From the NCBI GenBank assembly GCA_903871775.1, contig CAIQIA010000015.1:1-44008 (forward strand): a stretch of 44,008 nt of DNA, in the 5' to 3' direction. Of this stretch, positions 368-30,638 are shown piece after piece. A program made the position numbers and the translations under genes. Within the stretch, counting starts at the first letter, position 1. The number at the start of each line of letters is the position of its first letter. The DNA is from an uncultured cyanobacterium. Lineage in GTDB: Bacteria; Cyanobacteriota; Cyanobacteriia; PCC-6307; Cyanobiaceae. Below the pieces are notes generated by a model. The model did no database searches. It saw only the letters and a program-made list of their open reading frames with translations, and was not told the origin of the DNA.

Positions 368-1087
368 TCAGTCGACCGCGAATGCCCCCGGCCCGGGGCC
401 ACTGACCAACAGGGGCCGCCCCGCCGCCAGCCCCTGCACGGCCCCCTGCTCCCGCCGCGACGGGGGGCGACCCAGCCACAGCCCCCGCCACGCCCCCGAC
501 GGCACCCCGGGCAGCAGGGCGGCATCGACCGGGTCAGGAAGCAGCAGCCAGCGCTGGGACCCCAGCTGCAACCAGGCGCTGCGGCCACTGTCATCGAGGC
601 TGCTGTAGCTGAGCCCCGGGCTGCTGAGGCGGCCCAGGGGCCAGCGCTGCACGAGCCCGGCCTGGGCTTGCCAGCAGGGGTCGGCATCGGTCACGGCATC
701 ACCGGCGGCAGCAAGCAGCACCACCCAGTCGAATCGCGTGATCCCCAGGCCCTCCCGCAGACGGGAGGCGCGGCGGCAGCTGAAGCCATCACCGCCGGTG
801 CTGACCAGGGCCCCGCGACCCTGGTGACGGGCGATCAGCAGGCTGCTGCCGGCCTGGTGCACCAGCAGCAACTGATCACGGGTCTGCTGCAGCCCCTGAC
901 CCAGCCCGGCGATGAGCAGCAACGGCAGGCCCCGGCGCCGCCATCGCCGGGCCTGGGGCACAGCCACCAGCCAGGGCAGCAGGCCGGCGGTGAGCAGCAG
1001 CACCAGGGGCAGGGCCATGCGACCGGTGGGCAGCAATGCCCCCGGGATCGCCGCCACCACCGCCACCAGCCCCAGCAGAAGCTGCAC
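368..1087 (-). pseudogene. comEC: ComEC C-terminal part, downstream of an in-frame stop
   Basis: This continues the reading frame of the gene at 1109-2251 after the UAG at 1111-1109. The 7 codons between the stop and the first possible restart (GTG at 1087) are also open. It encodes two more hydrophobic helices and then a soluble domain where ComEC proteins usually carry a metallo-beta-lactamase-like domain. No HxHxDH metal motif is visible, so that domain looks degenerate. It ends at 368, 60 bp from tRNA-Ser. It could be translated from GTG 1087 as a 239-residue fragment, but more likely it is the stranded half of a nonsense-mutated comEC, or the stop is a sequencing error. Confidence 0.8.
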
Positions 1088-1108
1088 GGGCAGCTGCAGC
1101 AGCAGCAG

Positions 1109-2251
1109 CTAGACCGTCAGCAGGGGCCCCGGCAGCAGCGCCAGCAGGGCACCCCCCAGGGCCCCCAGGGTGAGCAGGGTCACCAGGGGCCCGGCCAGCA
1201 CATTGGCCGGCACCGCCAGCAGCGGCACGGCACCGAACTGCTGCAGCTGCAGCGGCAGGGTCCAGAGACTGGCGGCCAGGGGCACCGCCACCCCTGCCGC
1301 CATCCAGGGGGGCAGCCGACGCTGCAGCCCCCGCTCGAGCCGGGGGGCGGTGAGCAGCAGCCCGGCGGTGGCGGCGGCACTGAGCTGAAATCCCAGGTCC
1401 AACAGCCACTGGGGCATCCAGAGCAGCAGCAGCCCCAGGCTCACGAGCAGCACCCCCAGGGGGCGGGCCCGTTCGCCGCAGGCCTGGATCAGCAGCACAA
1501 GACTGCCCATCAGCGCCGCCCGCAGCACCGCCGGCTGGGCCCCGGCGAGGGTCACGAACAGCAGCACCGCGGCCCCTGCCCCCCCCAGCTGCACAGGCAG
1601 CGACGATCGCCGCAGCATCGCGGCCACGAGCCCCAGCAGCACGGTGAGCTGAAAGCCCGAGGCCGCCAGGGCATGGGACAGGCCCGCCACCCGGAACGGC
1701 TGGCTGAGGCCGTCGGGCAGTGCGACCACTCCGTTGCCGAGCACCAGCGCGGCCAGCAGGGCACCGGGCCCGGCCCCGGCCGCGGCCACGAAGCGCTCGA
1801 CGATGTGCTGCCGCAGGCGCCGGATGGGCCCCTGCTGCCGCTGCAACACCTGCAGCCGTTGCACCACCAGCTGGCTGAAGACCCCCTGACGGGCCAGGCG
1901 GGCCCCGCCATCCCCCAGCAGCGGATGCACCTGGCGCGGCGGCCGCCGCAGGCGGCCGACCACCTCCAATCGCCAGTCGGCCTGGAGACCCTGGCAATCG
2001 GGCAGCAACAACTGGGTGATGCCGGCGCGGGGGGGCTCGAGCCCCAGCAGGGCCAGACAGGCACCGCCGGCAAGGGTTCGGGGTGGTTCGAGCAGCCGGC
2101 CGCTCAGCTGCACCGTCTGGCCGATGGCCCCATGGACCGGATCAGCCGCCGGTGGCCGGGGCCAGCGCAGCAACGGGACAGCCATCAGCAGCACCGAAAT
2201 GCCGATCGCGAGCTGCCGCTGCCGCCGATGGCCCATGGGGCTGTCCCGCAA
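1109..2251 (-). CDS. comEC: ComEC/Rec2 competence channel, N-terminal part ending at in-frame UAG
   Basis: ComEC carries single-stranded DNA across the inner membrane in natural transformation. This 380-residue product has an N-terminal membrane anchor, an OB-like region (GQTVQLSGRLLEPP) and the polytopic Competence domain, with ALVLGNGVVALPDGL and the helix-capping SHALAASGFQLTVLLGL motif. It then stops abruptly in a hydrophobic segment at GPLLTV, and the same frame continues past UAG into 368-1087. The start is either TTG at 2251 or ATG at 2236. It lies 29 bp downstream of the polyferredoxin gene, probably in one transcript. Truncation would remove the last transmembrane helices, so the product is probably inactive unless the stop is read through. 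Confidence 0.9.
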   Translation of the reverse strand: MRDSPMGHRRQRQLAIGISVLLMAVPLLRWPRPPAADPVHGAIGQTVQLSGRLLEPPRTLAGGACLALLGLEPPRAGITQLLLPDCQGLQADWRLEVVGRLRRPPRQVHPLLGDGGARLARQGVFSQLVVQRLQVLQRQQGPIRRLRQHIVERFVAAAGAGPGALLAALVLGNGVVALPDGLSQPFRVAGLSHALAASGFQLTVLLGLVAAMLRRSSLPVQLGGAGAAVLLFVTLAGAQPAVLRAALMGSLVLLIQACGERARPLGVLLVSLGLLLLWMPQWLLDLGFQLSAAATAGLLLTAPRLERGLQRRLPPWMAAGVAVPLAASLWTLPLQLQQFGAVPLLAVPANVLAGPLVTLLTLGALGGALLALLPGPLLTV

Positions 2252-16766: not shown

Positions 16767-17576
16767 TCAGGCAAGCTTGCGCCGCAGCAGCGGGCGGATC
16801 AGCAGCAGCATGGCAAGGGAGACCAGGGCCAGCACGAAGAGGCAACCGAACCCGCTGACGCTGCCGTAGGGGGCCTGCAGCACGGGCCCGGCGATCGACC
16901 AGGTGCCGGCGTAGGCGGCACGGATCGGTTCGATGGCGAAGGTGAGGGGATTGAGACCGGCGATCCAGGCCAGCCAGGGGGGCATGGTGGCCATCGGCGC
17001 GAGGGCGGTGCTGCTGAACAGCAAGGGCAGGTTGAGCAGCAGCGTCACCGCCAGCAGTTCAACGTGACCGGGGAGGGCAAAGGCCAGACCGACGCTGAGG
17101 GTGGTCATGGCGGTGATCAGCAGCAGCAGGGTGAGCAGCACGACCGGCAGGGTGAAGCCCTGGGGCCAGCCGTAGCCCATGACCCCGGCCAGCAGCACGA
17201 TCACGAGGCATTGCACCAGGGTGACGCTGGCGATGTTGAGCACCGTGGCCAGCACGATCGAGCTGCGCGAGCGCAGGGGCGCCACCAGCAGGCGGTTGAG
17301 AAAGCCGAACTCGCGGTCGAACATCAGCGGCAACCCGGCGTTGAGGGCGGCGCCGAAGGCGGTGAAGACGATCACGCCAGCGGCGAGGAAGCGTCCGTAG
17401 CCCATGCCGGCAGGCATCCCGGCGGTGGGCATGCCGCTGAAGAGGGCACCAAAGAGCACCAGCCAGAGGATCGGCTGCAGCAGGCCCACCACCAGGCTGG
17501 TGGGACGGCGCTGAAGCTGCAGGAAGAGCCGTCGGCTGAGGGCTGCGGTCTCCTGCAGCCGATGGGTCATGGTCAC
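16767..17576 (-). CDS. ABC-2 type transporter permease
   Basis: The 269-residue protein has six hydrophobic segments in the ABC-2 membrane-domain pattern: an N-terminal amphipathic segment (LFLQLQRRPTSLVVGLLQPILW), the loop with REFGFLNRLLVAPL, and the late STALAPMATMPPWLAWIAGLNPLTF motif typical of NodJ/DrrB-type exporters. This makes it an exporter subunit for a drug, lipid or polysaccharide. No ATP-binding subunit is next to it, so its partner must be encoded elsewhere. It is followed by the small membrane protein at 16405. Confidence 0.9.
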   Translation of the reverse strand: MTMTHRLQETAALSRRLFLQLQRRPTSLVVGLLQPILWLVLFGALFSGMPTAGMPAGMGYGRFLAAGVIVFTAFGAALNAGLPLMFDREFGFLNRLLVAPLRSRSSIVLATVLNIASVTLVQCLVIVLLAGVMGYGWPQGFTLPVVLLTLLLLITAMTTLSVGLAFALPGHVELLAVTLLLNLPLLFSSTALAPMATMPPWLAWIAGLNPLTFAIEPIRAAYAGTWSIAGPVLQAPYGSVSGFGCLFVLALVSLAMLLLIRPLLRRKLA

Positions 17577-19336: not shown

Positions 19337-20029
19337 GTGCGAGTGCTGATCGTCGACGACGACCCCGACCTGCGTCGTCTGCTGGTCGCTGAACTGTCGG
19401 GCGCGGGCTATGGCTGCGTCGAAGCGGCCACGGGGGGCCAGGCCCTGGCCCTGGCGGCGGCCGAACCGGTGGCCCTGGTGGTGCTCGACTGGACGCTGCC
19501 CGACATCAGCGGGGTGGACGTGTGCCGGCGGCTGCGGGCCGATGGCATCGGCACACCGGTGCTGATGCTCACGGCCCGCGATGACGTGCGCGAACGGGTC
19601 GAAGCGCTGGATGCCGGCGCCGACGATTACCTCACCAAACCGTTTTCGCTCGAAGAACTGCTGGCACGGCTGCGGGCGCAGCTGCGGCGGGGTGAGCTGC
19701 AGCCGACGGGGTCAGGGGAGCGCCTGCAGCATGGACCGCTGCTGCTGGACCTGGCGAGCCGCGAGGTGCACCTGGCCGGCGAAGCGGTGCATCTGACGCT
19801 GCGCGAATACACGCTGCTCGAGGTGCTGCTGCGCCATGCCGAACAGGTGATGACGCGGCAAGACCTGCTGGCAGCGGTGTGGGGGGAACCGTTCGATGGC
19901 GATCCGAGCCTGCTGGATGCGTATGTGCGGTATCTGCGGCGCAAGCTGGAGCCAGCCGGTGCGCCGAGCCTGATCCAGACGGTGCGGGGGGTGGGTTTCA
20001 TGTTGCGGGAGGGTCCGCCGCGGGAGTGA
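19337..20029 (+). CDS. OmpR-family response regulator
   Basis: The 230-residue protein starts at GTG 19337 (VRVLIVDDDPDLRRLL). The receiver domain has acidic residues DDD (7-9), phosphoacceptor Asp51 (VVLDWTLPDIS), the Thr of MLTA and Lys101 (TKPF). The C-terminal winged helix (RLQHGPLLLDLASREVHL to IQTVRGVGFML) binds DNA. It converges with the histidine kinase at 19998, overlapping by 32 bp, so the pair is tail to tail instead of in one operon. The frame is open far upstream (to 18233), but that part is antisense to the permease and not coding. Confidence 0.95.
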   Translation: MRVLIVDDDPDLRRLLVAELSGAGYGCVEAATGGQALALAAAEPVALVVLDWTLPDISGVDVCRRLRADGIGTPVLMLTARDDVRERVEALDAGADDYLTKPFSLEELLARLRAQLRRGELQPTGSGERLQHGPLLLDLASREVHLAGEAVHLTLREYTLLEVLLRHAEQVMTRQDLLAAVWGEPFDGDPSLLDAYVRYLRRKLEPAGAPSLIQTVRGVGFMLREGPPRE

Positions 20030-21311
20030 CGGCCAGGGGCAGGCGCAGCTGAAAGTCGGCCCCACCGCCGTCGGCGTCGAGCACCGTCACCGTGCCGCCC
20101 ATGGCAGTCATCAGCAGCCGCACCACCGCCAGGCCGACGCCGCTGCCGCGGGTGTCGACGGCGGCCGTGCCACGCACGAACCGCTCGAAGATGCGCTCCC
20201 GTTCGGCGGAGGTGACACCGGGCCCGTGGTCGCGCACGCTGAGCACCACGGCGTTGTCATCGGCGGTGGCGGCCAGATGCACGGGGCCGGTGCTGTAGTG
20301 CAGGGCGTTGTCGACCAGGGCGGCGAGGCACTGCTGCAGGCGATCGGGGTCGGCCGGCGGCGATGGCAAGGGCGTGTCAGCAGGACCCACGAGGCGCAGA
20401 CGACCATCGGCGAGGGGTGCGAAGCGTTCGTAGAGCAGCAGCAGGGCTTCATCAGCATCGATGGGCTGGAGGCGCAGGGCCAGCCGGCCGGCGTCCTGGC
20501 GGGCGATGTCGAGCAGATCACTCACCAGCAGACCCATGCGATCGGCTTCGCCGTGGATCTGTTCGGCGGTGCGCTGCAGCGGGCCGGCGGGCAACTGGCG
20601 GCGCAGGCCCTGGGCCCGGCCCGAGATCAGGGTGATGGGGGTGCGCAGTTCGTGGGCGACGCCATCGACGAACGACCGTTCGCGATCCCATGAGGCCGCC
20701 AGGCGATCCTGCAGGGCATTGAAGGCCACGACGATGGGTTGCAGCTCGCGGGGCTGACCCTGGGGCGGCAGGTGGTGGCGGCCGAGGGAACGGCTGGTGA
20801 TGGTGGCGAGTTCATCACCAAAGCGCTGCAGGGGCCGCAGCAGGCCGCGGTGCAGCACCAGCCGCAGCAGGCCGCTGGTGAGCAGGCTGGTGCCACCGGC
20901 GGCGGCGATCAGCAGCCACTGGCCGATCTGTTCCTGCTGCACCGATTCGGTCACGTCTTGCCGCAGGTGCAGGCTGAGGGGTGTGTTGGGGGCCACCGCC
21001 GTGGTGCTGATGCTGGTCAGCCACTGGCGGCCTGAGGCATCGCGCTGCAGGTGCGGCGGTTGCGGCGGCTGCAGGGGGGTGAGAAGGGCATCGAGCCCCA
21101 GCACCTGCAGGCCGGCGGTCGACAGGCGCGGCGGCAGCAGGCCCAGGTCGGGCAGGTGGCGCTGCACGGTGGCGATCAGCTGCTCATGGGCGTGGCGCCG
21201 CTGCGTATCAGCGAGGGTGCGGTTGATCAGCAGCAGGGGGATGTAGCCGGCCAGCACCGCCAGCAGCGAGGCCGACTGCAGCCACAGACGCAGGGAGACC
21301 GGCTGGCGCAT
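19998..21311 (-). CDS. Sensor histidine kinase
   Basis: The 437-residue kinase has an N-terminal transmembrane helix (residues about 8-30), a periplasmic sensor region (about 35-130), a second helix (130-155), a HAMP-like linker, and HisKA with phospho-His220 in FVDGVAHELRTPI. The HATPase has the N box (ALVDNALHYS), G1 (DHGPGV), F box (FERFVRG) and G2 (GSGVGLAVV). It is a classic membrane sensor and very probably partners the regulator at 19337, with which it overlaps tail to tail. The signal is unknown. Its start faces the pilin gene across 144 bp, so pilus-related sensing is possible but unproven. Confidence 0.95.
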   Translation of the reverse strand: MRQPVSLRLWLQSASLLAVLAGYIPLLLINRTLADTQRRHAHEQLIATVQRHLPDLGLLPPRLSTAGLQVLGLDALLTPLQPPQPPHLQRDASGRQWLTSISTTAVAPNTPLSLHLRQDVTESVQQEQIGQWLLIAAAGGTSLLTSGLLRLVLHRGLLRPLQRFGDELATITSRSLGRHHLPPQGQPRELQPIVVAFNALQDRLAASWDRERSFVDGVAHELRTPITLISGRAQGLRRQLPAGPLQRTAEQIHGEADRMGLLVSDLLDIARQDAGRLALRLQPIDADEALLLLYERFAPLADGRLRLVGPADTPLPSPPADPDRLQQCLAALVDNALHYSTGPVHLAATADDNAVVLSVRDHGPGVTSAERERIFERFVRGTAAVDTRGSGVGLAVVRLLMTAMGGTVTVLDADGGGADFQLRLPLAVTPAADPPAT

Positions 21312-21455: not shown

Positions 21456-21947
21456 ATGACGTCAACCGTGTCTTCGTTGCGCCAACGGCGCAGTGTTTCG
21501 AGCTTCCGCCAACAGCTGGCCCTGCGCATGCTGAAGGGTCAGAAGCGTTCTCTGCTTGCCCAGGGCTTCACCCTGGTGGAGCTGATGGTCGTGATTGTCA
21601 TCGTCGGCATCCTGGCCGCGGTGGCACTACCGAACTTTTTGAATCAGAGCAAAAAAGCAGTTGCATCTGAAGCAAGGACAACTTCATCTGCCATCGCCAA
21701 ACAGGCCGCAGCTTCTTACACGGAGAACCCAGGTGGATGGACGGTTGACGCCAACTGCTCAGATTACGGCGCACCTGCTGTTGCTGGAACAACGAACTTC
21801 GACTATGCATGCTCAGGCGCAACAGCTGATGCATTCCAGGTTGTGGCCACTGGCGTAACCGGCAAAAAGGGCGCTGGAATTACTGTGACGACCCCCGTCA
21901 ATCTCATAACTGGTGTAACTGGAACAGTATCAACGACTGGCCTTTGA
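21456..21947 (+). CDS. Type IV pilin (PilA-like major or major-like pilin)
   Basis: The product has a prepilin leader ending QG, cut before FTLVELMVVIVIVGILAAVALPNFL, with the canonical Glu5 and a long hydrophobic helix. A compact 100-residue head follows, with two Cys (ANCSDYG, DYACSGA) that could form the C-terminal disulfide. The start is ATG 21456 or ATG 21528 (MLKGQKRSLLAQG); the later one gives a normal 12-residue leader. GC content falls sharply in the second half relative to the neighbours. A strong terminator follows at 21991, so it is transcribed apart from the minor-pilin cassette. It diverges from the histidine kinase. Confidence 0.93.
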   Translation: MTSTVSSLRQRRSVSSFRQQLALRMLKGQKRSLLAQGFTLVELMVVIVIVGILAAVALPNFLNQSKKAVASEARTTSSAIAKQAAASYTENPGGWTVDANCSDYGAPAVAGTTNFDYACSGATADAFQVVATGVTGKKGAGITVTTPVNLITGVTGTVSTTGL

Positions 21948-22121: not shown

Positions 22122-23558
22122 ATGGCATGGTCTAAAGGAATTCTGACCGTTAAGGTCAAGTCATCTGACCTCACAGGAGAAAACGATGGATTTGTCCTCC
22201 CCTTAGTCGTCATCATCGGCCTGATCCTGCTGGTGGGCGGCCTGGCGACCCTGGCCCGCAGCTTCGGCGGCCTGCTCGGTGCCATCCGGCAGGAGCAGGC
22301 CGGCCAGGCCCGCGAGATCGCCGAAAACGGCCTGGCCCGCACCGTCGGTCGCCTCAACAGGCAATGGCCCTATCTGCTGATCAACTGTTACGCCAGCAAC
22401 GGCACAGTTCCGGCCACCTGCAGCGGCACCTGGAGCAATCCCGCCCTGCCGTCGGCCATCTGCCCCGGCCACAGCACCATCAGTTATCCGCCGTTGACCG
22501 GCACCACCAGCCAGCCCGCCGGTCGTTTTCGCATCGACTCCTACACCTTCAGCGGTACCCAGTTCTATGGCGGCACCGCCAAGATCAAGGTGATCGGTGA
22601 ACGCCTCGGTGGTGACGGCAGCACCGTCGTCGCCAGTGCCATGGTCGAGCAGGAATTTGACGTCAAACCCAAGAACTGTGACGCCCGCTACGGCCAACCC
22701 GCCACCTCAAGCGGCTTCCCGGGTCTGCTGGGCTGGGGCATCAACCTCGGTGGCAACGATGTGCGCGGCCGCATCTCGGGCAACGTCTTGTGCATCACCT
22801 GCAGCAATGCCGAACAGATGAATGCCAACACGCAGAGCGTGGTCGATGGCCAGAAGTTCTGGGGGCCCATCGCCATACCGCCGGTGCCCACCTTCCCAAC
22901 CAACCTCACCGCAACGCCACAGCCGATCAACGCGTCCACCACCATCACCGCCGGCAGCACCAATGGCGGCATGTGTGCCGTTGACACCAACACCCCCCCC
23001 ATTACCCACTGCCGCATCACCTCGATCAACTTCAGCGGCCAGCAGTTTCTGACCGTCGATTCAGCCGCCGGTCCCGTGCGCCTCTACATCAGCGGCAACG
23101 TCAGCGCCTCCGGCAAAGCGGGCATCATCCACAAAGCCGGCAGCAATCCCGACCCCTCGCCCGGCGACCTCGGCCTCTTCGGCAATCCCCTCAGCAGCAA
23201 CCCAGCCTGCATGGCCTCCGCCAGCTGCCACAGCCAGACCGTCACCCTTGCCGGGGTATCAAAACCCGCCAAGGCCGCCAATCTTTTTGCCTTTTTCCCC
23301 GATGCCAAGGTCGGCATCAATGGTGGTGCCCAGGGCACCGTCATCTGCGACACCGAAGGAGAATGTGGCGGTGGTGACATCTACGGGGCCATCTGGGCCA
23401 AGCAATGGGATGGCTCCAGCTCAAACAACGCCCAGCTTGTGGTCCCCCGCGACATGGCCAACATCCTGCTCACCAACTACGGAACCCAGTTCGCCATCAG
23501 CGTTCGCGATTATGTCGGCCTTGGTGTCAACAGCTGGCGTGGTTTTCAGGGTTTCTGA
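22122..23558 (+). CDS. PilX-like minor pilin with a large Cys-containing ectodomain
   Basis: At 478 residues it opens with a 23-residue leader ending ENDG, then FVLPLVVIIGLILLVGGLATLARS. That is the PilX-type N-terminus, which has Pro instead of Glu near position 5. PilX and its relatives nucleate pilus assembly at the inner membrane and sit at the tip. The remaining about 430 residues are exported, Ser/Thr/Asn/Gly-rich and contain many cysteines (NCYASN, ICPGH, NCDARYG, CITCSN, CDTEGECGGGD). It is first gene of the plus-strand cassette and 3.6 times longer than its counterpart at 27500-27898, so the head domain may be the functional (adhesive) part. The ectodomain is not recognised. Confidence 0.8.
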   Translation: MAWSKGILTVKVKSSDLTGENDGFVLPLVVIIGLILLVGGLATLARSFGGLLGAIRQEQAGQAREIAENGLARTVGRLNRQWPYLLINCYASNGTVPATCSGTWSNPALPSAICPGHSTISYPPLTGTTSQPAGRFRIDSYTFSGTQFYGGTAKIKVIGERLGGDGSTVVASAMVEQEFDVKPKNCDARYGQPATSSGFPGLLGWGINLGGNDVRGRISGNVLCITCSNAEQMNANTQSVVDGQKFWGPIAIPPVPTFPTNLTATPQPINASTTITAGSTNGGMCAVDTNTPPITHCRITSINFSGQQFLTVDSAAGPVRLYISGNVSASGKAGIIHKAGSNPDPSPGDLGLFGNPLSSNPACMASASCHSQTVTLAGVSKPAKAANLFAFFPDAKVGINGGAQGTVICDTEGECGGGDIYGAIWAKQWDGSSSNNAQLVVPRDMANILLTNYGTQFAISVRDYVGLGVNSWRGFQGF

Positions 23559-23728
23559 CCCAGGCGCTTCTGCGATCAATTTAAGCTCTGATGATCGTTG
23601 CAGCGTTGCAGCCGCCAATCCGGCAGTCTGGCCCCCGGTGCCTTCAGAAAGATCTCAGTTGGCATTGGAGGAACTGTCTTCTGGCCCTCCACGGGGACAC
23701 CTGCGGCAAATTCAGATTCTCGCAACAG

Positions 23729-24274
23729 TTGAGGTGTGCCATCACGCCGTCCGCTGTCGCCCACCTTCACCGCCACCGACGCCAGCGGCCCCCCCGCGAC
23801 GGCGGCTTCAGCCTCACCGAAGCCATGGTGTCGTCGGTGCTGCTGATGCTGGTGGTGAGCCAGTCGGCCAGCCTCTTCAGCCAGTCCCTCGGTGCCCTCG
23901 GCAAGGCCCGCCTGCGCGACAGCGTCAACGCCGCCATCGCCGCCGACCTCGAGCAGGTGCGCCACGAGGTGTTCACCTGGGCCGCCGACACCACCCCCAG
24001 CGTCGACGGTCAGCTCAGTTATTCCCCCATCGCCAGCGCCTGCAACGCCGGCACCCTCGCCACCAGCCTGCTCAGCGACCGCAGCAGCACCCTGCCCACC
24101 CAGGCCACCCTCAGCAGCCAGGCCCTGCCCGGCATCAGCATCCACCGCACCATCAACGTCGACCCAAACGACGCCGATGTGCTGCTGGTGCGCTACAGCA
24201 CCAGTGGCAGCACCCTCGTGAGCGTGGACCAGAACACCGCCCTCGTGCCCCCCGCCCAAGGCTGGTGCCCGTGA
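23729..24274 (+). CDS. PilV-like minor pilin
   Basis: The product carries the prepilin motif RDGG, cut before FSLTEAMVSSVLLMLVVSQS, with Glu5 retained, followed by a helical stalk and a head of about 110 residues. The TEAMV/TEVLV core is the PilV type. The start is uncertain. TTG 23729 gives a 26-residue leader; ATG 23591 in the same frame would add 46 residues that do not read as protein. The stop overlaps the next gene's GTG start (GTGA, 24271-24274), implying coupled translation. There is a 170-bp gap upstream after the PilX-like gene. Confidence 0.8.
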   Translation: MRCAITPSAVAHLHRHRRQRPPRDGGFSLTEAMVSSVLLMLVVSQSASLFSQSLGALGKARLRDSVNAAIAADLEQVRHEVFTWAADTTPSVDGQLSYSPIASACNAGTLATSLLSDRSSTLPTQATLSSQALPGISIHRTINVDPNDADVLLVRYSTSGSTLVSVDQNTALVPPAQGWCP

Positions 24275-24810
24275 ACCGCCAGGACGGTTTCAGCCTGCCC
24301 GAACTGCTGGTCGCCATGGCCATCGCCGGCATCCTCAGCGGCATCGGCTTTGCCCTCTACCAGCGCCAGTGGCAGAGCGAACGCACCCAGGCCGCCGGCC
24401 GTGAACTGGCCGCCCGCCTCGACGAGCTCCGCCGCCGCGCCCAGCAGAAGGCCGGCGCCTGCCATGTCGCCATCGATCCCGCTGCCACCACCCTCGGCCC
24501 CGCCGCCGCCAACACCAGCGCCTGCAGTGATTTCGGTTCCCTCAACCTGCGCGCCGTCGTCCAGGGCGCCACCGACCTGGTGCTCTGCGTCCAGGCCCTC
24601 GACAGCACCGCCGCCTGCAGCACCGCCACCGCCGGCACCACCCTGGTCTTCACCCCCCGCGGCACCGCCACCACCAGCGCCCTGCTGCGCCTGCACCGCC
24701 CCGGCGACAGCCGCGACCGTTGCGTTGCCATCGTTGCCCCCCTCGGCCTCATCCGCAGCGGTCGCGCCAGCGCCGCAGGCGGCAGCTGCGACTTCACCAC
24801 CGCCTTCTGA
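24271..24810 (+). CDS. FimT/GspH-like minor pseudopilin
   Basis: The 179-residue product starts at GTG 24271 inside the previous stop. The leader is only six residues (VNRQDG) before FSLPELLVAMAIAGILSGIG, with Glu5. A long helix and a beta-rich head follow, with four or more Cys (GACHVAI, SACSDFG, DRCVAIV) and a C-terminal SCDFTTAF. The size, single Glu5 and GspH-like layout point to the FimT/GspH class, which in competence pili can bind DNA. The stop is in the same frame as the next gene, separated by three codons. Confidence 0.82.
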   Translation: MNRQDGFSLPELLVAMAIAGILSGIGFALYQRQWQSERTQAAGRELAARLDELRRRAQQKAGACHVAIDPAATTLGPAAANTSACSDFGSLNLRAVVQGATDLVLCVQALDSTAACSTATAGTTLVFTPRGTATTSALLRLHRPGDSRDRCVAIVAPLGLIRSGRASAAGGSCDFTTAF

Positions 24811-24819
24811 ACCGCTGCC

Positions 24820-25965
24820 ATGGGGTTCACCCTCGTCGAACTGCTGGTCGCCGCCGCCATCGGCCTGCTCACCGCCACCGTCGCCGGCGATGCCCTGCTG
24901 GGCCACCTGCGCACCAGCGAACGCGCCGAAGCGCTCGAACGCCAACGCAGCGACTGGTCACGCGCCAGCGGCTTTCTCGAGGCCGAACTGGCCCTCTCTG
25001 AACGGGCCATCGGCACCGAAGCCAACATCGGCATCCCCGCCGCCTGCGCCATCGCCAGCGGCCAGTTCCGCCTCGCCCTCGACCTCCGCCGCGACCTGCC
25101 CCCCGTCATCTACTTCGTGCGCCCCTCCGATCCCGGCTGGGTCGGCGCCAACACCCTCTGGCGCTGCGGCCCCGCCATCAACGACGACGGCACCTACAAC
25201 GCCACCCTCGTGCGTGCCCCCCTGCTCGATGGCCTCGACGGCAGCGCCAACGGCGGCGGCTTCGCCGCCACCCCCACGGGTGACGGCGAAATGGTCGCGT
25301 TCGCCCTCACCCTGCGGGGTCTGGCCAGCCGCAGCTTCAGCCAGCCCGACAACGGCCACACCCGCATCAGCCCCCTCTACTCGCGCCCCAGCGACCTCGA
25401 ACTCTGCGGTGCCGCTAACATGGTCAAGCTGGCGGGCAGCGCCGGTGCCGACACGCTCACCATGGCCATCGGCCAGGTGCAGGCCGGAGAAGACGTGCTC
25501 ATCTGCGGCTTCGGCGGTGGCGACACCATCCGCGGGTCCCAGGCCAACGACATCCTCGAATGCGGCCGCAACGGCAGCTCCGACACGGCCGCCTGTTCGC
25601 TCTGGGGCAAAGGCGGCAACGACGTGCTGCGGGGCGGCGACGGCAACGACTGGCTTGATGGCGACACCCGCGCTGCCGGCGACGTCGGCAGCGACGGCAA
25701 TGACGTGCTGGTGGGGGGCGCCGGCCATGACACCCTCAGCGGTGGTGGCGGCCAGAACAGTTATCTGCCGGGGGCCGGCAATGACCGGGTGATCGGCAGC
25801 AGCGGCCTCGACATCGTCTTTCTCAACGGCAACCGTGCCGCCACCACCATCAGCAGCTGCAGCCGCAGCAGCTGCACCATCAGCAGCACCGCCGAAGGCA
25901 CCGACACCCTCACCGGCGTTGAGATTCTCATCTTCCGCGACGCCCGCTACGACATCCCCGACTGA
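24820..25965 (+). CDS. PilW-like pseudopilin fused to an RTX calcium-binding domain
   Basis: The 381-residue product begins MG then FTLVELLVAAAIGLLTATVAG, a pilin N-terminus with Glu5 but only a two-residue leader. An upstream stop in frame nine bases before ATG excludes a longer leader. Residues about 25-200 are a PilW-like stalk and head. Residues about 203-335 contain hemolysin-type glycine/aspartate nonapeptides (GGGDTIRGS, GKGGNDVLRGGDGNDWLDGD, GSDGNDVLVGGAGHDTLSGG, GAGNDRVIGSSGLD), and the end reads TDTLTGVEILIF, as in RTX proteins. RTX repeats fold as a calcium-bound beta roll. This fusion is unusual. It is the last gene of the plus cassette and overlaps the convergent gene by 19 bp. 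Confidence 0.88.
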   Translation: MGFTLVELLVAAAIGLLTATVAGDALLGHLRTSERAEALERQRSDWSRASGFLEAELALSERAIGTEANIGIPAACAIASGQFRLALDLRRDLPPVIYFVRPSDPGWVGANTLWRCGPAINDDGTYNATLVRAPLLDGLDGSANGGGFAATPTGDGEMVAFALTLRGLASRSFSQPDNGHTRISPLYSRPSDLELCGAANMVKLAGSAGADTLTMAIGQVQAGEDVLICGFGGGDTIRGSQANDILECGRNGSSDTAACSLWGKGGNDVLRGGDGNDWLDGDTRAAGDVGSDGNDVLVGGAGHDTLSGGGGQNSYLPGAGNDRVIGSSGLDIVFLNGNRAATTISSCSRSSCTISSTAEGTDTLTGVEILIFRDARYDIPD

Positions 25966-26627
25966 TCACCCAGCTGCACGCTGCGGTCACCCTGCAGCCG
26001 CTGCGGGCGTTCTCTGGGGCTGCCCAGCCGCAGCAGCAGCCGCAGCTCGACCACACCGCTGTCGGCTTCGGCGCAGGCCGCCAGCGGCAGCGCGGCGGTG
26101 CCCTGCAGCAGCTGACCCGCCGGCAGCGGGCAGACGAATGCCTGCGGCGGCGCCGGGTCGAGCCCATCGAGCACCACCCGGTTCTGAAACGCCGCCGCCG
26201 GGTTGGGCCGCCCATCGGCCCCGAAGGCCCGGCCGCACCGCATCAGCACCCATCCCCGCCAGATCGGGTCGGGCGGGCTGCCGACGCTGTAGGTGGTGAG
26301 CCGGCCGTCGCTGCCGGTGATCTGCAGCACCGGCCGCCGCCCCGCCAGCCCGCAGGCCGGCACCAGCCCCGCCGCCGCCGGATCGGGCGCCAGCACCGTG
26401 CCCCGCTGCAGATCACCGGCCATCAGCGCCAGGGCCCGCTCGAGCCGCTGGCGCTCCCGCAGTTGCCGCCCCAGCCGTCGGCCCAGATCCCCATCCCCGA
26501 ACAGGGCCGTCAACGCGGCCATGGCCAGGGTGAGCCCCAGGCTGCAGGCCAGCAGCAGCTCCAACAGCGAAAACCCCGCCACCGCCGGGCGGCAGTGCTG
26601 AAGGGGGCGGTGGTCAGAGCGCATCAT
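25947..26627 (-). CDS. PilW-like minor pseudopilin
   Basis: The product of about 226 residues has leader MMRSDHRPLQHCRPAVAG, then FSLLELLLACSLGLTLAMAALTALFG, with Glu5. The head of about 180 residues holds several Cys (PACGLAG, MRCGRAF, FVCPLPAG, AACAEAD) and no RTX repeats. It ends the minus-strand cassette and overlaps the upstream FimT/GspH-like gene by 14 bp and the convergent RTX-PilW gene by 19 bp. Either ATG at 26627 or 26624 may start. It is the positional counterpart of 24820-25965 without the calcium-binding domain. Confidence 0.82.
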   Translation of the reverse strand: MMRSDHRPLQHCRPAVAGFSLLELLLACSLGLTLAMAALTALFGDGDLGRRLGRQLRERQRLERALALMAGDLQRGTVLAPDPAAAGLVPACGLAGRRPVLQITGSDGRLTTYSVGSPPDPIWRGWVLMRCGRAFGADGRPNPAAAFQNRVVLDGLDPAPPQAFVCPLPAGQLLQGTAALPLAACAEADSGVVELRLLLRLGSPRERPQRLQGDRSVQLGDQSGMS

Positions 26628-27075
26628 CGGCCTGACATCCCGACGCCTCCTGGCGGCCCACCCGGGTGATGCCCAGGGGCAGCGACACCACCAGGCAGCG
26701 GCGCAGGGCCGTGCCCTCCATCCCCAGCACAACGGTGCCGCCCCCCAGCACCAGGCCGTTGGCCGTGAAGGTGAGCGGCCCCGGCAGGTTGTGGCTCAGG
26801 TTCAGACCAGCGCCATCGCCGCCGTCGAGCAGCGGCCCCGCCCCCTCACCACAGCCCCCCGCCACCGGCGCCTGCCAGCCCTGCGGCCCCAGCACCAGCT
26901 GGCACGGCTGTCCTGTGCGCTCGGCCGCCGACCGTGCCCGCTCGAGCCCCAGCCCCAGGGCCACCGTGGCAGCCTCCAGGCGCTGGCGGGCCAGGGTCTG
27001 GCTGCCGTTCCACAGCCCCGCCGCCGCCAGCAGCCCCACCAGCGCCACGGCGATCAGCTGCTCGGCGAGGGTCAC
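26614..27075 (-). CDS. FimT/GspH-like pseudopilin lacking a leader
   Basis: The 153-residue product starts at GTG 27075, giving MTLAEQLIAVALVGLLAAAGLW. Aligning TLAEQ with the usual FTLVE places the initiator Met at mature position 1 and Glu at position 5, so there is no leader or cleavage Gly. The codons upstream in this frame contain no start. GTG overlaps the stop of the PilV-like gene (27072-27075, GTGA). The helix, then a beta-rich head with Cys (QPCQLVLG, GGCGEGAG, RRCLVVS, SGCQADDAL), fits the FimT/GspH class. It may assemble without processing or may have a degraded start. Confidence 0.75.
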   Translation of the reverse strand: MTLAEQLIAVALVGLLAAAGLWNGSQTLARQRLEAATVALGLGLERARSAAERTGQPCQLVLGPQGWQAPVAGGCGEGAGPLLDGGDGAGLNLSHNLPGPLTFTANGLVLGGGTVVLGMEGTALRRCLVVSLPLGITRVGRQEASGCQADDAL

Positions 27076-27662
27076 GGGGCCACCTCCGCTGGTGCGCAGG
27101 CCCCCAGCCCCTCCAGCCGCAGATGGCGTTGCCGTTCAACCCCCGCCGGCTCGAGCCGCCAGCGCAGCACCAGCTCATCGGCCACCGCCGCCGCAGGACG
27201 CAGCTCCAGCCGGCGATCCAGCTGCCCGCCCTCGGCCACGGCCAGCGGCGCCTGCAGGGCCACTGCCGCCGCCAGCTGCTGCAACCGCTGCGCCCGCAGC
27301 TCAGGGCGATCGCAGGCGATGGCCCCCTGCCGGGCCTGGCGGCGCAGCAATCCCTCATCACGACCCAGCTGCCGTTGCAGCAGCACCGCCGCGTCCCTCT
27401 GGCCGCTGGCGGCCGCCGCCAGGGCCATGGCCCGCTGCCAACCCTGCAGGCCCAGCGTCAGCCACAGGGCCAGCAACACCGCCGACACCAGCACTTCGGT
27501 CAGTCCGAAGCCCGCCGCAGCACCCCATCGCTGCTGAGCACGAAGGATCGCCGGCGCAGGGGCTGGCCTGGAGCGGCCCGGCGCTGCAAGGCCAGCGACT
27601 GGCTGCCGTCGGATCGTGCCTGCCAGGCCTCCAGCGCAAACTGCCCGGCGGGATGGCCCCAC
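27072..27662 (-). CDS. PilV-like minor pilin with an unclear start
   Basis: The frame encodes RWGAAAG, then FGLTEVLVSAVLLALWLTLGL, a prepilin N-terminus with Glu5 (TEVLV, as in the plus-strand PilV-like gene). A Gln/Arg/Leu-rich helical stalk and a short head follow, ending GLGACAPAEVAP. No ATG, GTG or TTG lies near the expected leader. The nearest is GTG 27662, giving a leader of about 51 residues, inside the overlapping PilX-like gene. A non-standard start (for example ATC) in the overlap, or coupling to the upstream gene, is possible. The coding part is convincing from about 27510 down. Confidence 0.68.
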   Translation of the reverse strand: MGPSRRAVCAGGLAGTIRRQPVAGLAAPGRSRPAPAPAILRAQQRWGAAAGFGLTEVLVSAVLLALWLTLGLQGWQRAMALAAAASGQRDAAVLLQRQLGRDEGLLRRQARQGAIACDRPELRAQRLQQLAAAVALQAPLAVAEGGQLDRRLELRPAAAVADELVLRWRLEPAGVERQRHLRLEGLGACAPAEVAP

Positions 27663-27898
27663 CCCTGGGACGGCCAGCCCACCCCCTGGCGCCACGACGC
27701 CACCGCGACCATGGCCGCCGAGGCGAAGCCGTCGTCGAGCTGGGCCTCCCGCAGCACCGCCTCGCTGCGCCGCCGATCCTGCAACGCCAGGGCCTGCAGC
27801 GACAGGGTCATCAGCAGCACCACCAGACCCAGCAGCAGCACGATCGGCAGCACGAAACCGGTTTCTGCCGGTCGGCTGCGCCGCGGCAAACGTTCCAT
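27500..27898 (-). CDS. PilX-like minor pilin, short form
   Basis: The 132-residue product has leader MERLPRRSRPAETG, then FVLPIVLLLGLVVLLMTLSLQALALQ, the PilX N-terminus with Pro in place of Glu near position 5, matching FVLPL of 22122-23558. A helical stalk (DRRRSEAVLREAQLDDGFASA) and a small head follow, ending LSSDGVLRRASD. It is the first gene of the minus-strand cassette. Its 3' third overlaps the PilV-like frame. It is divergent from the HpsJ-like gene, with 83 bp between the starts. Confidence 0.82.
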   Translation of the reverse strand: MERLPRRSRPAETGFVLPIVLLLGLVVLLMTLSLQALALQDRRRSEAVLREAQLDDGFASAAMVAVASWRQGVGWPSQGWGHPAGQFALEAWQARSDGSQSLALQRRAAPGQPLRRRSFVLSSDGVLRRASD

Positions 27899-27981: not shown

Positions 27982-28809
27982 ATGCACATTGTGAATAGGC
28001 AGCCCGTGGGCACAAGCCCTGCATCCAACGACGAGCTCCTCGACGTCGGATCCTTGCCCGACCGGTTCCAGCAGCTGTTCTCGCTGTTCCAGATCCGGCT
28101 GGTCGGGGCCATCCTGAGCGGCCATTTCGTACTGAGAGCTGTCCTGTACCTCTCCCTCTACCCCGCCCTCGATCCGTTCATGCGGTTGTCGCAGCTGGCG
28201 GCGCTGGCCAACAGCGCTATCCTCCTGCCCTTCGGCTGCGCCCTTTATCTGCTGGGCAGCGGCTACCGCCGCCAGGCCATCGAAAAACCCCTGCTGAAGG
28301 TGCTGTTCCCGTTGCTGCTGCCCTTCGCCGTCGCCATCGGTGTGCTGCTGCCCCTGGCGATCGTCAGCAGCACCCACAACCTGCAGCAGCAGCAGCAGCA
28401 GGCCAGCCGGGCAAACATCGCCTTGCTCGATGAGAACCGCCGCCTCGAGCAACGCATGGCCTCGATTCCCACTACTGCGGCCGCCAGAACGTTTGTCGAT
28501 GCCGTGGGGGTGAACCTGCCGATCGCCGCCAACGACCCCATGCCGCTGGTGCGTTGGCGCTTCAGCCAGGTCCTGAACCAACGCCACGAGACCCTGCTTG
28601 ATCGCCAGCCCATGGCACGCATCACTCCTTATCAGCAGGAATTGCTGGGCCTTGGTCACATGATCACCGCTGTCGGCTTGTCGCTGTTCTCTGGCGCCTC
28701 GGTGTTGCTGATTTATCTGCAAGGTCGCAACCGCTTCCGCCGCTACCACCTCAGTTCGGCCACCTTCCTCACGGCAGAAGCGGTCAAGCCTCGCCATCGC
28801 ACCCGCTGA
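27982..28809 (+). CDS. HpsJ-like membrane protein with coiled coil
   Basis: The 275-residue protein has hydrophobic helices at about residues 35-55, 65-90 and 105-130, then a polyglutamine/coiled-coil stretch (HNLQQQQQQASRANIAL, then DENRRLEQRM), a periplasmic-looking loop, and a final helix near residues 225-245 before a basic tail. The layout and the helix2-loop-helix3 segment resemble cyanobacterial HpsJ, part of the hormogonium polysaccharide system that also uses pseudopilins. This is an inference from shape. ATG 27982 is preferred. A TATAAA at 27975-27980 just before it may be a -10 element, in which case GTG 27991 could be the start. Confidence 0.6.
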   Translation: MHIVNRQPVGTSPASNDELLDVGSLPDRFQQLFSLFQIRLVGAILSGHFVLRAVLYLSLYPALDPFMRLSQLAALANSAILLPFGCALYLLGSGYRRQAIEKPLLKVLFPLLLPFAVAIGVLLPLAIVSSTHNLQQQQQQASRANIALLDENRRLEQRMASIPTTAAARTFVDAVGVNLPIAANDPMPLVRWRFSQVLNQRHETLLDRQPMARITPYQQELLGLGHMITAVGLSLFSGASVLLIYLQGRNRFRRYHLSSATFLTAEAVKPRHRTR

Positions 28810-28829: not shown

Positions 28830-30638
28830 TCACTGGTTCAGCTTCAGCACCGCCATGAAGGCCTCCTGGGGCACCTCGACCCGGCCCATGGCCTTCATCC
28901 GCTTCTTGCCCTTGGCCTGCTTCTGCAGCAGCTTCTTCTTGCGTGAAATGTCGCCGCCGTAGCACTTGGCCAGCACATCTTTGCGCATGGCACTGATGCT
29001 TTCACTGGCAATGATGCGGCTGCCGATCGACGCCTGAATCGGAATCTTGAACTGCTGCCGCGGAATCAGTTCCTTCAGCTTCTCGACCAGACCCTTGCCC
29101 ACGTTGTAGGCCTTGTCGCGGTGCACGATCGTGGTCAGGGGATCGGCCTTCTCGCCGTTGATCAGTACATCCAGCCGCACCAGGGCGTTCTCGCGATAAC
29201 CGATCAGGCTGTACTCCATCGAGGCATAGCCCTTGGTGCGACTTTTCATCTGATCGAAGAAGTCGGTCACCACCTCCGCCAGCGGCATCTCGTAGTGCAG
29301 CGTGACCCGGTCGGTGGTCATGTACTTCATGTCAATGAACTGCCCCCGACGCTCCTGGCACAGCTCCATCAAGGTGCCGTTGTAGGTGTTAGGGGTGTAG
29401 ACCTCGAGCTTCACGTAGGGCTCTTCAATCGAGGTCCGTTGCTGCGGTTCAGGCAGGGTGGCCGGATTGTCGACCAGCACCGTCTCGCCATCGACCAGAT
29501 TGACCCGGTACACCACCGAAGGCGCCGTCACGATCAGATCAAGGTCGTACTCCCGTTCCAGCCGTTCCTGCACGATCTCCATGTGCAGCAGCCCCAAAAA
29601 GCCACAACGGAACCCAAAACCCATGGCGCTGCTCGTCTCGGGCTCGTACTGCAGGGCCGCATCCGACAGGCGCAGCTTGTCGAGGGCCTCCCGCAGGTCG
29701 GGGTACTGGTCGGCATCGGTGGGGAAGAGGCCGCAGAACACCATCGGCTTGGCTTCGGTGTAACCCGGCAGCGGATCGGGGGCCGGATCGGCCGCCAGGG
29801 TGATCGTGTCGCCGACGCGGGCATCGGCCACGGCCTTGATCGAGGCCGCCAGATAGCCCACCTCACCGGCATGCAGCTCGCTCACCTGGCGCTGGTCCGG
29901 CGCCATCACCCCCACCTCGTCAAGTTCGTAGGTCTTGCGGCTGGCCATCAGCAGCACCTTGTCGCGCTGGCGCAGGCGACCGCTCAGCACCCTGAAGTAC
30001 ACGATCACCCCCCGGTAGGGGTCGTAGTACGAATCGAAGATCAGCGCCCGCAGCGGTTCCTCGACCCGGTCAGGCGGTGGCGGCACCCGATCGACGACGG
30101 CCTGCAGAATCTCGGGCACCCCCAGCCCCGTCTTGGCGGAACAGGCGATGGCCTGGCTGGTGTCGAGGCCGATCACCTCTTCGATCTCGGCTGAAATGCG
30201 TTCGGGATCGGCCCCTGGCAGGTCGATCTTGTTCAAGACCGGAATGATCTCGAGGTCGTTGGCGATGGCCAGGTAGACGTTGGCCAGGGTCTGGGCCTCG
30301 ACCCCCTGGCTGGCATCCACCACCAGCAGCGCCCCCTCACAGGCCTGCAGGCTGCGACTCACTTCATATGAGAAGTCAACGTGGCCCGGGGTGTCGATCA
30401 GGTTGAGGATGTAGGTCTCGCCATCGGCGGCCTTGTACTCCATCCGGGCCGCCTGGAGCTTGATCGTGATGCCCCGCTCACGTTCGAGGTCCATGTTGTC
30501 GAGAAACTGCTCCTGCATGTCGCGGGCCGCCACCGTGCCCGTGTCCTGCAGCAGCCGGTCGGCCAGGGTCGATTTGCCGTGGTCGATGTGGGCAATGATG
30601 CAGAAGTTGCGGATCCGGGAGACGGGAACGTCGGTCAT
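28830..30638 (-). CDS. lepA: Elongation factor 4 (LepA)
   Basis: LepA/EF4 is a ribosome-bound GTPase that acts on stalled or mis-translocated ribosomes. The 602-residue protein has the G1 motif [15 protein letters not shown] (residues 16-30), effector RGITIKLQ, G3 DTPGHVDF and G4 NKIDLPGA. It continues through the EF-G-like domains II, III and V to the LepA-specific C-terminal domain ([17 protein letters not shown]). ATG 30638 is the usual start. It is transcribed toward the HpsJ-like gene and is divergent from the nfu gene. Confidence 0.98.

Follow-up and report, generated by a model that had tools for sequence, protein, structure and literature searches.

The subject of this report is a pair of minor-pilin operons in a stretch of DNA from an uncultured cyanobacterium of the family Cyanobiaceae (assembly GCA_903871775.1, contig CAIQIA010000015.1, positions 1 to 44,008; the whole stretch of 44,008 nucleotides is called the window). 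Eight open reading frames in the window form two four-gene operons on opposite strands, both in the order X-V-T-W; the plus-strand set is called p and the minus-strand set m. Each set appears to encode GspK/PilX-like (X), GspI/PilV-like (V), GspH/FimT-like (T) and GspJ/PilW-like (W) subunits of a tip (initiation) complex. On balance, the comparative sequence evidence favours the view that the two operons are paralogous and supply alternative tips to a single type IV pilus, one for DNA uptake (m) and one adhesive (p). Each set would prime the same major pilin, and the operon that is expressed would decide the tip and hence what the pilus binds. The m set would most likely make a DNA-uptake tip, because its heads are compact, its W is basic (as the head of a DNA-binding tip might be) and it co-occurs with comEC and dprA. 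The p set would most likely make a surface- or cell-binding tip, because its X heads are large and variable and its W, in the window's clade, carries calcium-binding RTX repeats.

Two paralogous minor-pilin sets

An earlier note on this DNA, made from the letters alone, had described two convergent X-V-T-W cassettes. All eight frames are indeed open where it had placed them, and the stop codons of both W genes bear out the 19-bp overlap at which it had the cassettes meet (Table 1). In both sets the four roles stand in one operon that includes a GspH-domain subunit, both T proteins passing the GspH cut-off of Pfam (21 bits; scores of 24.5 for p and 27.7 for m). The role names of V, W and X rest on N-termini, gene order and profile comparison: for these three, no curated PilV/PilW/PilX or Gsp family cut-off was reached in Pfam or NCBIfam, and X of the p set had no Pfam match. 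The X genes of the window are missed by the N_methyl model, and V of the p set scores 17 bits with it, under the cut-off of 21.2.

The pairwise match of the N-termini, which the earlier note had pointed out, extends well into the proteins, and the profiles of the two sets match role by role. Within the window's genome, W of the p set and W of the m set share 33% identity over 162 positions (E 1.9e-7). When m and p profiles built from relatives (with roles and gene ends assigned by hand) were compared, the two cross-matches were 7e-21 and 2e-22 for T, 2e-19 and 2e-21 for W, 9e-8 and 3e-6 for V, i.e., weaker than for T and W, and 1e-3 and 1e-6 for X. The pairing of the X subunits is the weakest of the four, since the best foreign score of the m-set X profile went to a T (3e-4), slightly above any p-set X.

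The earlier note had suggested trees of each pair, to separate an old duplication from separate acquisitions. In a tree of T and W from 46 sets, all 18 m sets group together with support 100/100, and all 14 p sets do likewise, apart from m, with 95/92; the sets of other cyanobacteria fall between or beside them, with the deep branch order unsettled. Thus, each gene of one set has its paralogue in the other, and across the Cyanobiaceae the sets fall into two separate clades. A single clade of m and p together has a p value of 0.405 in the approximately unbiased test (p-AU), so that a duplication within the family and an older one fit alike. Separate recent acquisitions of the two sets are ruled out, as m and p are each one clade across the family.

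The heads of the two sets differ greatly, as the earlier note had also remarked, and above all in X, the median mature length of which is 516 amino acids in p and 151 in m. Mean column identity is 56% for T of the m set, 33% for T of the p set and 29% for X of the p set. Judged from these sequences, the m set is compact and conserved, and the p set has large, variable heads. The W heads also differ in charge: per 100 amino acids it is +3.0 in m and -0.8 in p (in the window, +3.3 and -3.0), and the m-type W is the more basic in 41 of 44 loci. The corresponding charges of the T heads, 0.6 in m and 0.1 in p, lack the contrast seen in W. At the C-terminus of W, RTX repeats (PF00353) were found in the p set of the window and in six of eight other p-set W proteins tested (L017, L018, L019, L045, L046 and L057). 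A model of X of the p set (predicted local distance difference test score, pLDDT, 73.5) weakly resembles ice-binding beta-solenoids (E 6e-3, target template-modelling score 0.50); because these fold matches are weak, no function is drawn from them for this head.

The glutamate at mature position 5 (Glu5) is kept in all subunits but the K/X one: in T, W and V of the m set in 95/95, 91/92 and 88/91 sequences, and in T, V and W of the p set in 88/88, 57/57 and 57/58. In X of the m set, position 5 is L, M, I or V, and position 4 is mostly Pro.

Distribution and layouts in the family

The family was sampled with 151 genomes, including SynAce01, Cyanobium, WH7803 and Vulcanococcus. Loci of the m set were chosen for an m-type T, and removal of five duplicates took them from 99 to 94 distinct loci; open reading frames cut by the end of a locus (1 of 91 V genes) and repeated proteins were also dropped before counting. 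Judged by stop positions, the order X-V-T-W holds in 83 of the 94 loci; three more have extra copies and eight are partial. The gene lepA is present in 64 of the 94, many of these loci being short.

The position of the p set relative to the m set varies: it may lie tail to tail with it, in tandem downstream, or past lepA, and in WH7803 (L102) the p set and the major pilin stand beyond a histidine kinase gene. A p-type W (or a V beside W) converges on the m set within 3 kb in 25 of the 94 loci. In 14 of these 25 the two sets meet within 60 bp, and a kinase gene lies between them in L063 and L087. Thus, the survey for the convergent layout that the earlier note had called for gives a double answer: the twin arrangement is real and recurrent, yet it is one of several layouts, the others of which recur as well.

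The secretin PilQ is present in 93 of the 151 genomes. Of these, at least 45 have both sets, 22 have m only, at least 10 have p only and 16 have neither. The list of genomes with m (75 genomes) was compiled by hand from matches of about 97 bits or more. Presence of p, also compiled by hand, required either a T match over roughly 130 of the 171 positions or an X match at 1e-9 or better; p may be undercounted, and its counts, here and in the comparisons with ComEC and DprA below, are lower bounds. N_methyl scans of 12 genomes showed one major pilin together with the m set in the one-contig genomes G082, G034 and G098, and a p-like set only in G052 and G094; the scan of G105 also gave one major pilin and the m set. 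In three small-genome relatives of this p-like type (L132, L133 and L134), the only minor-pilin set and pilQ meet with their tails; this set is p-like by profile, and the tree leaves its placement undecided (p-AU 0.44). As there are genomes with m alone and genomes with p alone, each of the two can serve a genome as its only tip set.

One copy of a pair may be decaying, which the earlier note had named as a finding that would speak against its reading. Single genomes have gone this way in both directions (m in G071, p in G133), yet both sets are found in at least 45 of the 93 genomes with PilQ. In G133 (L020), the p set looks decayed, its X being scattered in pieces far apart and its W split between two frames, and X, T and W of the m set were found.

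Several loci depart from the common layouts. Around lepA in G062 (L027) there are three minor-pilin sets, two of type p and one of type m; in G023 (L024) two p-type sets stand face to face, one with its W in pieces. In L135 and L017 (both G009), some 20 kb separate X of the p set, which has two major pilins for company, from its own V-T-W. In one genus, the m-type T and W are about 9 kb apart in L034 (G024) and 3 kb apart in L230 (G070), with X frames of 74 and 76 amino acids, respectively. Two loci titled otherwise, as Bifidobacterium breve (L076) and as a gammaproteobacterial metagenome-assembled genome (L099), contain lepA and an m set and are probably mis-binned Cyanobiaceae DNA.

A probable single pilus machine

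The earlier note had left two options, i.e., two alternative tip complexes for one pilus, or one cassette for the pilus and one for a secretion system. The secretin is represented by a single match in 92 of the 93 genomes that have it, the window's own genome included, and by a match in two pieces in the remaining one (G111). Since the pilus-bearing genomes sampled have one secretin, both sets very probably serve one type IV pilus machine. The first option fits the full X-V-T-W complements, the one secretin and the genomes with either set alone; the second is disfavoured, as no second secretin was seen in the 93 genomes.

In its narrower form, with one set building the pseudopilus for type II secretion and the other serving the pilus, the second option is very improbable. 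The four roles are those of GspH to GspK, and both T proteins match GspH profiles, as this form would have it. Against it, a secretin of its own is what such a system would be expected to have and what the single match in nearly every genome denies it, and no secretion genes were seen among the 20 other open reading frames of the window that were scanned.

Somewhat less improbable, although still a poor prospect, is that one set belongs to a polysaccharide export system of the Hps kind and the other to the pilus. Here, X of the m set has a weak match to the HpsA N-terminus (E 0.001; 16.7 bits, with a cut-off of 400), the gene adjoining it is HpsJ-like (33 bits, with a cut-off of 140), and an ABC-2 type transporter permease, of a kind also used for polysaccharides, is encoded at 16767-17576. 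Both Hps matches are far under the curated cut-offs, however, the HpsJ-like gene stands beside some m sets only, and no glycosyltransferase was seen among the same 20 reading frames. None of the NCBIfam equivalog cut-offs for HpsA to HpsD was reached, and the major pilin alone gave matches to HpsB and HpsC, which fell far short of the cut-offs.

With what looks like one machine and natural genomes that have both sets, only m or only p, the question of what each tip does becomes testable by paired deletions.

The m set and competence

Whether the m set goes with DNA uptake can be judged from its co-occurrence with ComEC and DprA. In what follows, the four counts are genomes with both, with the set only, with ComEC (or DprA) only, and with neither. 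For m-type T and ComEC they are 70/5/8/68 in all 151 genomes, 64/3/8/18 in the 93 genomes with PilQ (p=2e-10) and 64/3/2/8 in the 77 of these that have a set (p=3e-7). In the same 77 genomes, m and DprA give 63/4/2/8 (p=1e-6). The p set, for which the first two counts are lower bounds, gives 46/9/20/2 with ComEC (p=0.50) and 44/11/21/1 with DprA (p=0.16).

The genome G071 (one contig) looks like a natural experiment, as far as sequence can tell: in its gutted m operon (L231 5739-6537) a deletion leaves the start of X running into the end of W, the remainder of both genes being lost together with V and T, comEC is reduced to a frame of 333 amino acids, and pilQ (a frame of 785 amino acids) and a full p set of X, V, T and W are retained.

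Several observations weigh against a link of the m set with competence. First, relatedness: a PilQ tree of 92 of the 93 genomes (G097, with a secretin fragment, was excluded) offers only three changes of ComEC on supported branches, and six at most. On average, m follows such a change in 1.3 cases and opposes it in 0.1 (2.5 and 0.0 if truncated comEC is counted as absent), and p does hardly worse, with 1.0 (2.0 with truncated comEC as absent) in the same direction and 0.1 in the opposite one. Once relatedness is corrected for, the link of m with ComEC is not significant, the independent events being too few. Second, when the X gene alone is used as the marker, p is weakly tied to ComEC in the genomes with PilQ (45/6/27/15, p=0.01). 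Third, there are exceptions: ComEC occurs without m in eight genomes, including G069, G088, G097 and G107, where the comEC frame is long, and five have m without ComEC. One of these five, the draft genome G070, has neither comEC nor a strong DprA match, and V, T and W of its m set are intact; G071, with its gutted m set, retains a strong DprA match. Fourth, the comEC of the window itself has 383 codons, an in-frame TAG (1111-1109) and then 246 open codons. The comEC match of G032, a genome of the same genus, has no stop inside, and the TAG of the window may reflect a recent loss or a fault of the assembly; the m set may, with a stop in comEC, have no job in the window's organism.

G070 was considered as a second case of m decay alongside loss of comEC and was rejected: its V, T and W frames are open, and the TAG in T is the gene's own end. 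Its X is short (a frame of 76 amino acids), and the related, comEC-bearing G024 has a similarly short X (74 amino acids).

Because the tree-corrected test, the exceptions and the stop in the window's comEC weigh against it, the tie between the m set and competence, as read from these genomes, is held to be only slightly better founded than its opposite. The main alternative is that the two priming complexes are redundant, neither having a task of its own, and that the pattern of m and comEC stems from shared ancestry and genome streamlining. It draws on the fact that either set can occur as the only one, on the non-significant corrected test, on the m sets kept without comEC, and on a precedent in Myxococcus xanthus, where, in the part of the published account available, pili are formed with cluster 1 or cluster 3 as the only cluster (PMC7541494). 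Redundancy would leave unexplained that m and p form separate clades with unequal conservation, that their W charges are opposite in most loci, and that p does not track comEC in genomes carrying a set. It is thus regarded as rather unlikely, and a division of labour between an m tip for DNA and an adhesive p tip as the better account.

Pilins that seem to lack a leader

Prepilins are defined by a leader that ends in Gly or Ala and is removed by prepilin peptidase, according to the part of the source available (PMC10191384). Such a leader is found in nearly all X and W proteins and nearly throughout the roles of the p set; it appears to be lacking in V of the m set and in T of the m set in the window. 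In V of the m set, an ATG or GTG stands exactly at the first residue of the mature protein (+1) in 86 of 90 distinct genes, and in 78 of these 86 there is no ATG, GTG or TTG 2 to 40 codons upstream. This start adjoins the end of the gene before it: in 82 of 85 pairs the start codon and the stop of X have bases in common, the stop beginning one base into the start codon (ATGA or GTGA type) in 70 and sharing one base with it in 12. No p-set V (0/57) has a start codon at +1, and Gly occupies -1 in 5 of 90 m-set V genes, versus 52 of 57 in the p set. Upstream starts are the rule elsewhere: 92/92 for W and 84/86 for X of the m set, and 56/56, 56/57, 87/88 and 58/58 for X, V, T and W of the p type, where the counts include the outgroup and some major pilins.

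For T of the m set an upstream start is present in 89 of 95 genes, and the six without one are those of the window, L036, L017, L034, L094 and L100. In the window, the GTG at 27075 is at +1 and overlaps the V stop (GTGA), position -1 is Pro, and there is no other in-frame ATG, GTG or TTG upstream. For V of the window, +1 is F, and the stop of X shares bases with a CTG at +3; the sister locus L036 has a TTG there. The frames that the earlier note had listed for the minus strand are open, but its start of V at 27662 is doubtful, and T begins at the mature residue.

In an alignment of 37 V sequences, the methionine at position 1 is at least 90% conserved and Glu5 is invariant, as would be expected of subunits taking part in assembly. 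V is modelled (pLDDT 93) as a single helix of residues 3-60 with a small head of three strands. Foldseek gave no match for it at E 0.001; in the VIA rows, the pilin PilA4 (Z 6.4) and a chain of the Xcp pseudopilus (Z 5.5) appear amid unrelated rows of like Z, and GspI itself is not named in that list.

The missing leader might be only apparent, a non-standard or far-upstream start being used and the leader being cleaved as usual. This would agree with an Ala at -1 in 48 of 91 V genes, with near-cognate codons 4 to 20 codons upstream in 11 of 81 V genes (two of which have a leader-like stretch) and in four of the six T genes without a standard start, and with the good cleavage site (G|FGLTEV) of V in the window. 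It is contradicted by the bases that the +1 start shares with the X stop, by the rarity of Gly at -1 in comparison with the p set, and by the L, P or V that occupies -1 in 25 of 91 V genes and is forbidden by the usual rule. An apparent lack is thus considered unlikely, and the leaderless state of V or T is judged from sequence to be probably real.

The more specific proposal, i.e., that throughout the Cyanobiaceae a tip linked to DNA uptake contains a leaderless pilin, namely V of the m set (joined by T in several lineages), whose start is coupled to the stop of X and whose insertion and assembly need no processing by prepilin peptidase, is advanced with a little more belief than doubt. Such subunits (V, and T in a few lineages, the window's included) should enter the membrane already mature, since translation starts at the mature N-terminal residue, and prepilin-peptidase cleavage would play no part. 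If true, this would break the rule by which pilins are defined, would offer a way to tell whether assembly itself requires processing or whether sorting in the membrane alone does, and could let a tip complex form before, or apart from, the PilD-dependent subunits. A search of the open-licence literature, at the level of listings, found no report of leaderless pilins.

Relation to known systems

Several published systems, described here from the parts of the papers available, are close to this one. In Synechocystis, pilA5-6/pilX1 and pilA9-12 are distinct minor-pilin sets, for which the authors proposed different tip complexes (PMC12288463). As in the family studied here, there are two sets in one cyanobacterium, one with a gene required for transformation and the other involved in motility and flocculation (PMC12288463, PMC6755745). 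Unlike here, a tail-to-tail pair and leaderless pilins are not mentioned, the comparison being with the published description only.

In M. xanthus, three minor-pilin clusters serve one machine and single clusters suffice; the likeness lies in several FimU-PilV-PilW-PilX sets with one major pilin and one machine, and each cluster also has a PilY1 (PMC7541494).

In Synechococcus elongatus, transformation requires four pilin-like genes (pilA3, pilW, rntA and rntB), and mutants lacking them still carry pili (PMC7125226).

The genome G179 is presumably that of S. elongatus or a close relative (its KaiB is identical to PDB 4kso). It has a lone T-W pair (L117), which we take to be pilA3-pilW from the spacing and from locus numbers, and, about 110 kb off, X-V-W X-V-W plus T. 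Unlike the m set, these genes are split over two loci, and their V genes have ordinary leaders. A placement of the m set in the pilA3-pilW lineage of S. elongatus is not supported (p-AU 0.07). The second locus of G179 (L116), with tandem X-V-W, X-V-W and T on the other strand, is a doubled minor-pilin set.

For WH7803, pilA1 and five further pilin-like genes nearby have been published (PMC7994388). In the same stretch (L102), ten pilin genes are found here: A0 (a major-pilin-like gene), a second major-like gene, a p set X-V-T-W and, across the histidine kinase, an m set X-V-T-W. The paper, in the part available, pairs its six genes as PilA1-PilE, PilA2-PilV and PilA3-PilW and does not describe two X-V-T-W sets (PMC7994388); its PilA3-PilW could be the T-W of the m set.

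The idea of alternative tips is not new, because the sets of Synechocystis and Myxococcus are in print. The earlier note had regarded the twin arrangement as undescribed, which is overtaken as regards alternative sets and stands as regards the m set as a set and the convergent layout, of which no description was found in the literature searched, seen in part. The present findings are the m and p pair seen throughout the family, the layouts it takes, the uncorrected association of m with comEC and dprA, and the subunits that seem to lack a leader.

The locus and its neighbours

The features of the locus are collected in Table 1. A0 stands ahead of the p set in several relatives too, and a gene like the HpsJ-like one is found at the same place, between X of the m set and lepA, in several relatives. 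In the window's own genome (2.57 Mb in 27 contigs), N_methyl (E up to 1) matches six places, all of them in the window.

Table 1. Features of the two minor-pilin operons and their surroundings (window coordinates)
Feature	Position	Strand	Evidence and remarks
comEC, split by in-frame TAG	368..2251	-	PF03772 155 bits; 1 TAG inside
Histidine kinase upstream of A0, recurrent neighbour	19998..21311	-	PF00512, PF02518
A0, major-pilin-like gene heading the plus set	21456..21947	+	N_methyl 30.7 bits; GspG/PilA-like matches
X of p set, 478 amino acids, GspK/PilX-like N-terminus	22122..23558	+	G|FVLPLVVI; no Glu5; large head
V of p set (GspI/PilV-like), TTG start	23729..24274	+	Ordinary prepilin cleavage site G|FSLTEA; profile of p-set V
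T of p set (GspH/FimT-like), GTG start, leader VNRQDG	24271..24810	+	PF12019 24.5 bits; N_methyl 32.2 bits
W of p set (GspJ/PilW-like), 381 amino acids, C-terminal RTX repeats	24820..25965	+	N_methyl; PF00353 52.3 bits
RTX-like stretch in W of p set, about residues 227-343	25498..25848	+	NCBIfam RTX match 227-343; PF00353
Overlap of both W genes (19 bp), tail to tail, stops included	25947..25965		W stop codons
W of m set, 226 amino acids, basic head	25947..26627	-	N_methyl 17.6 bits
T of m set (GspH/FimT-like), GTG at mature +1	26614..27075	-	PF12019 27.7 bits
V of m set, counted from mature +1 (F)	27072..27509	-	Start candidates: CTG at +3, or GTG 27662
X of m set, 132 amino acids	27500..27898	-	G|FVLPIVLL; no Glu5; profile of m-set X; weak HpsA N-terminus match, E 0.001
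HpsJ-like gene between m set and lepA, divergent from m set	27982..28809	+	NF050013 33.1 bits, cut-off 140
lepA, usual m-set neighbour	28830..30638	-	PF06421 165 bits

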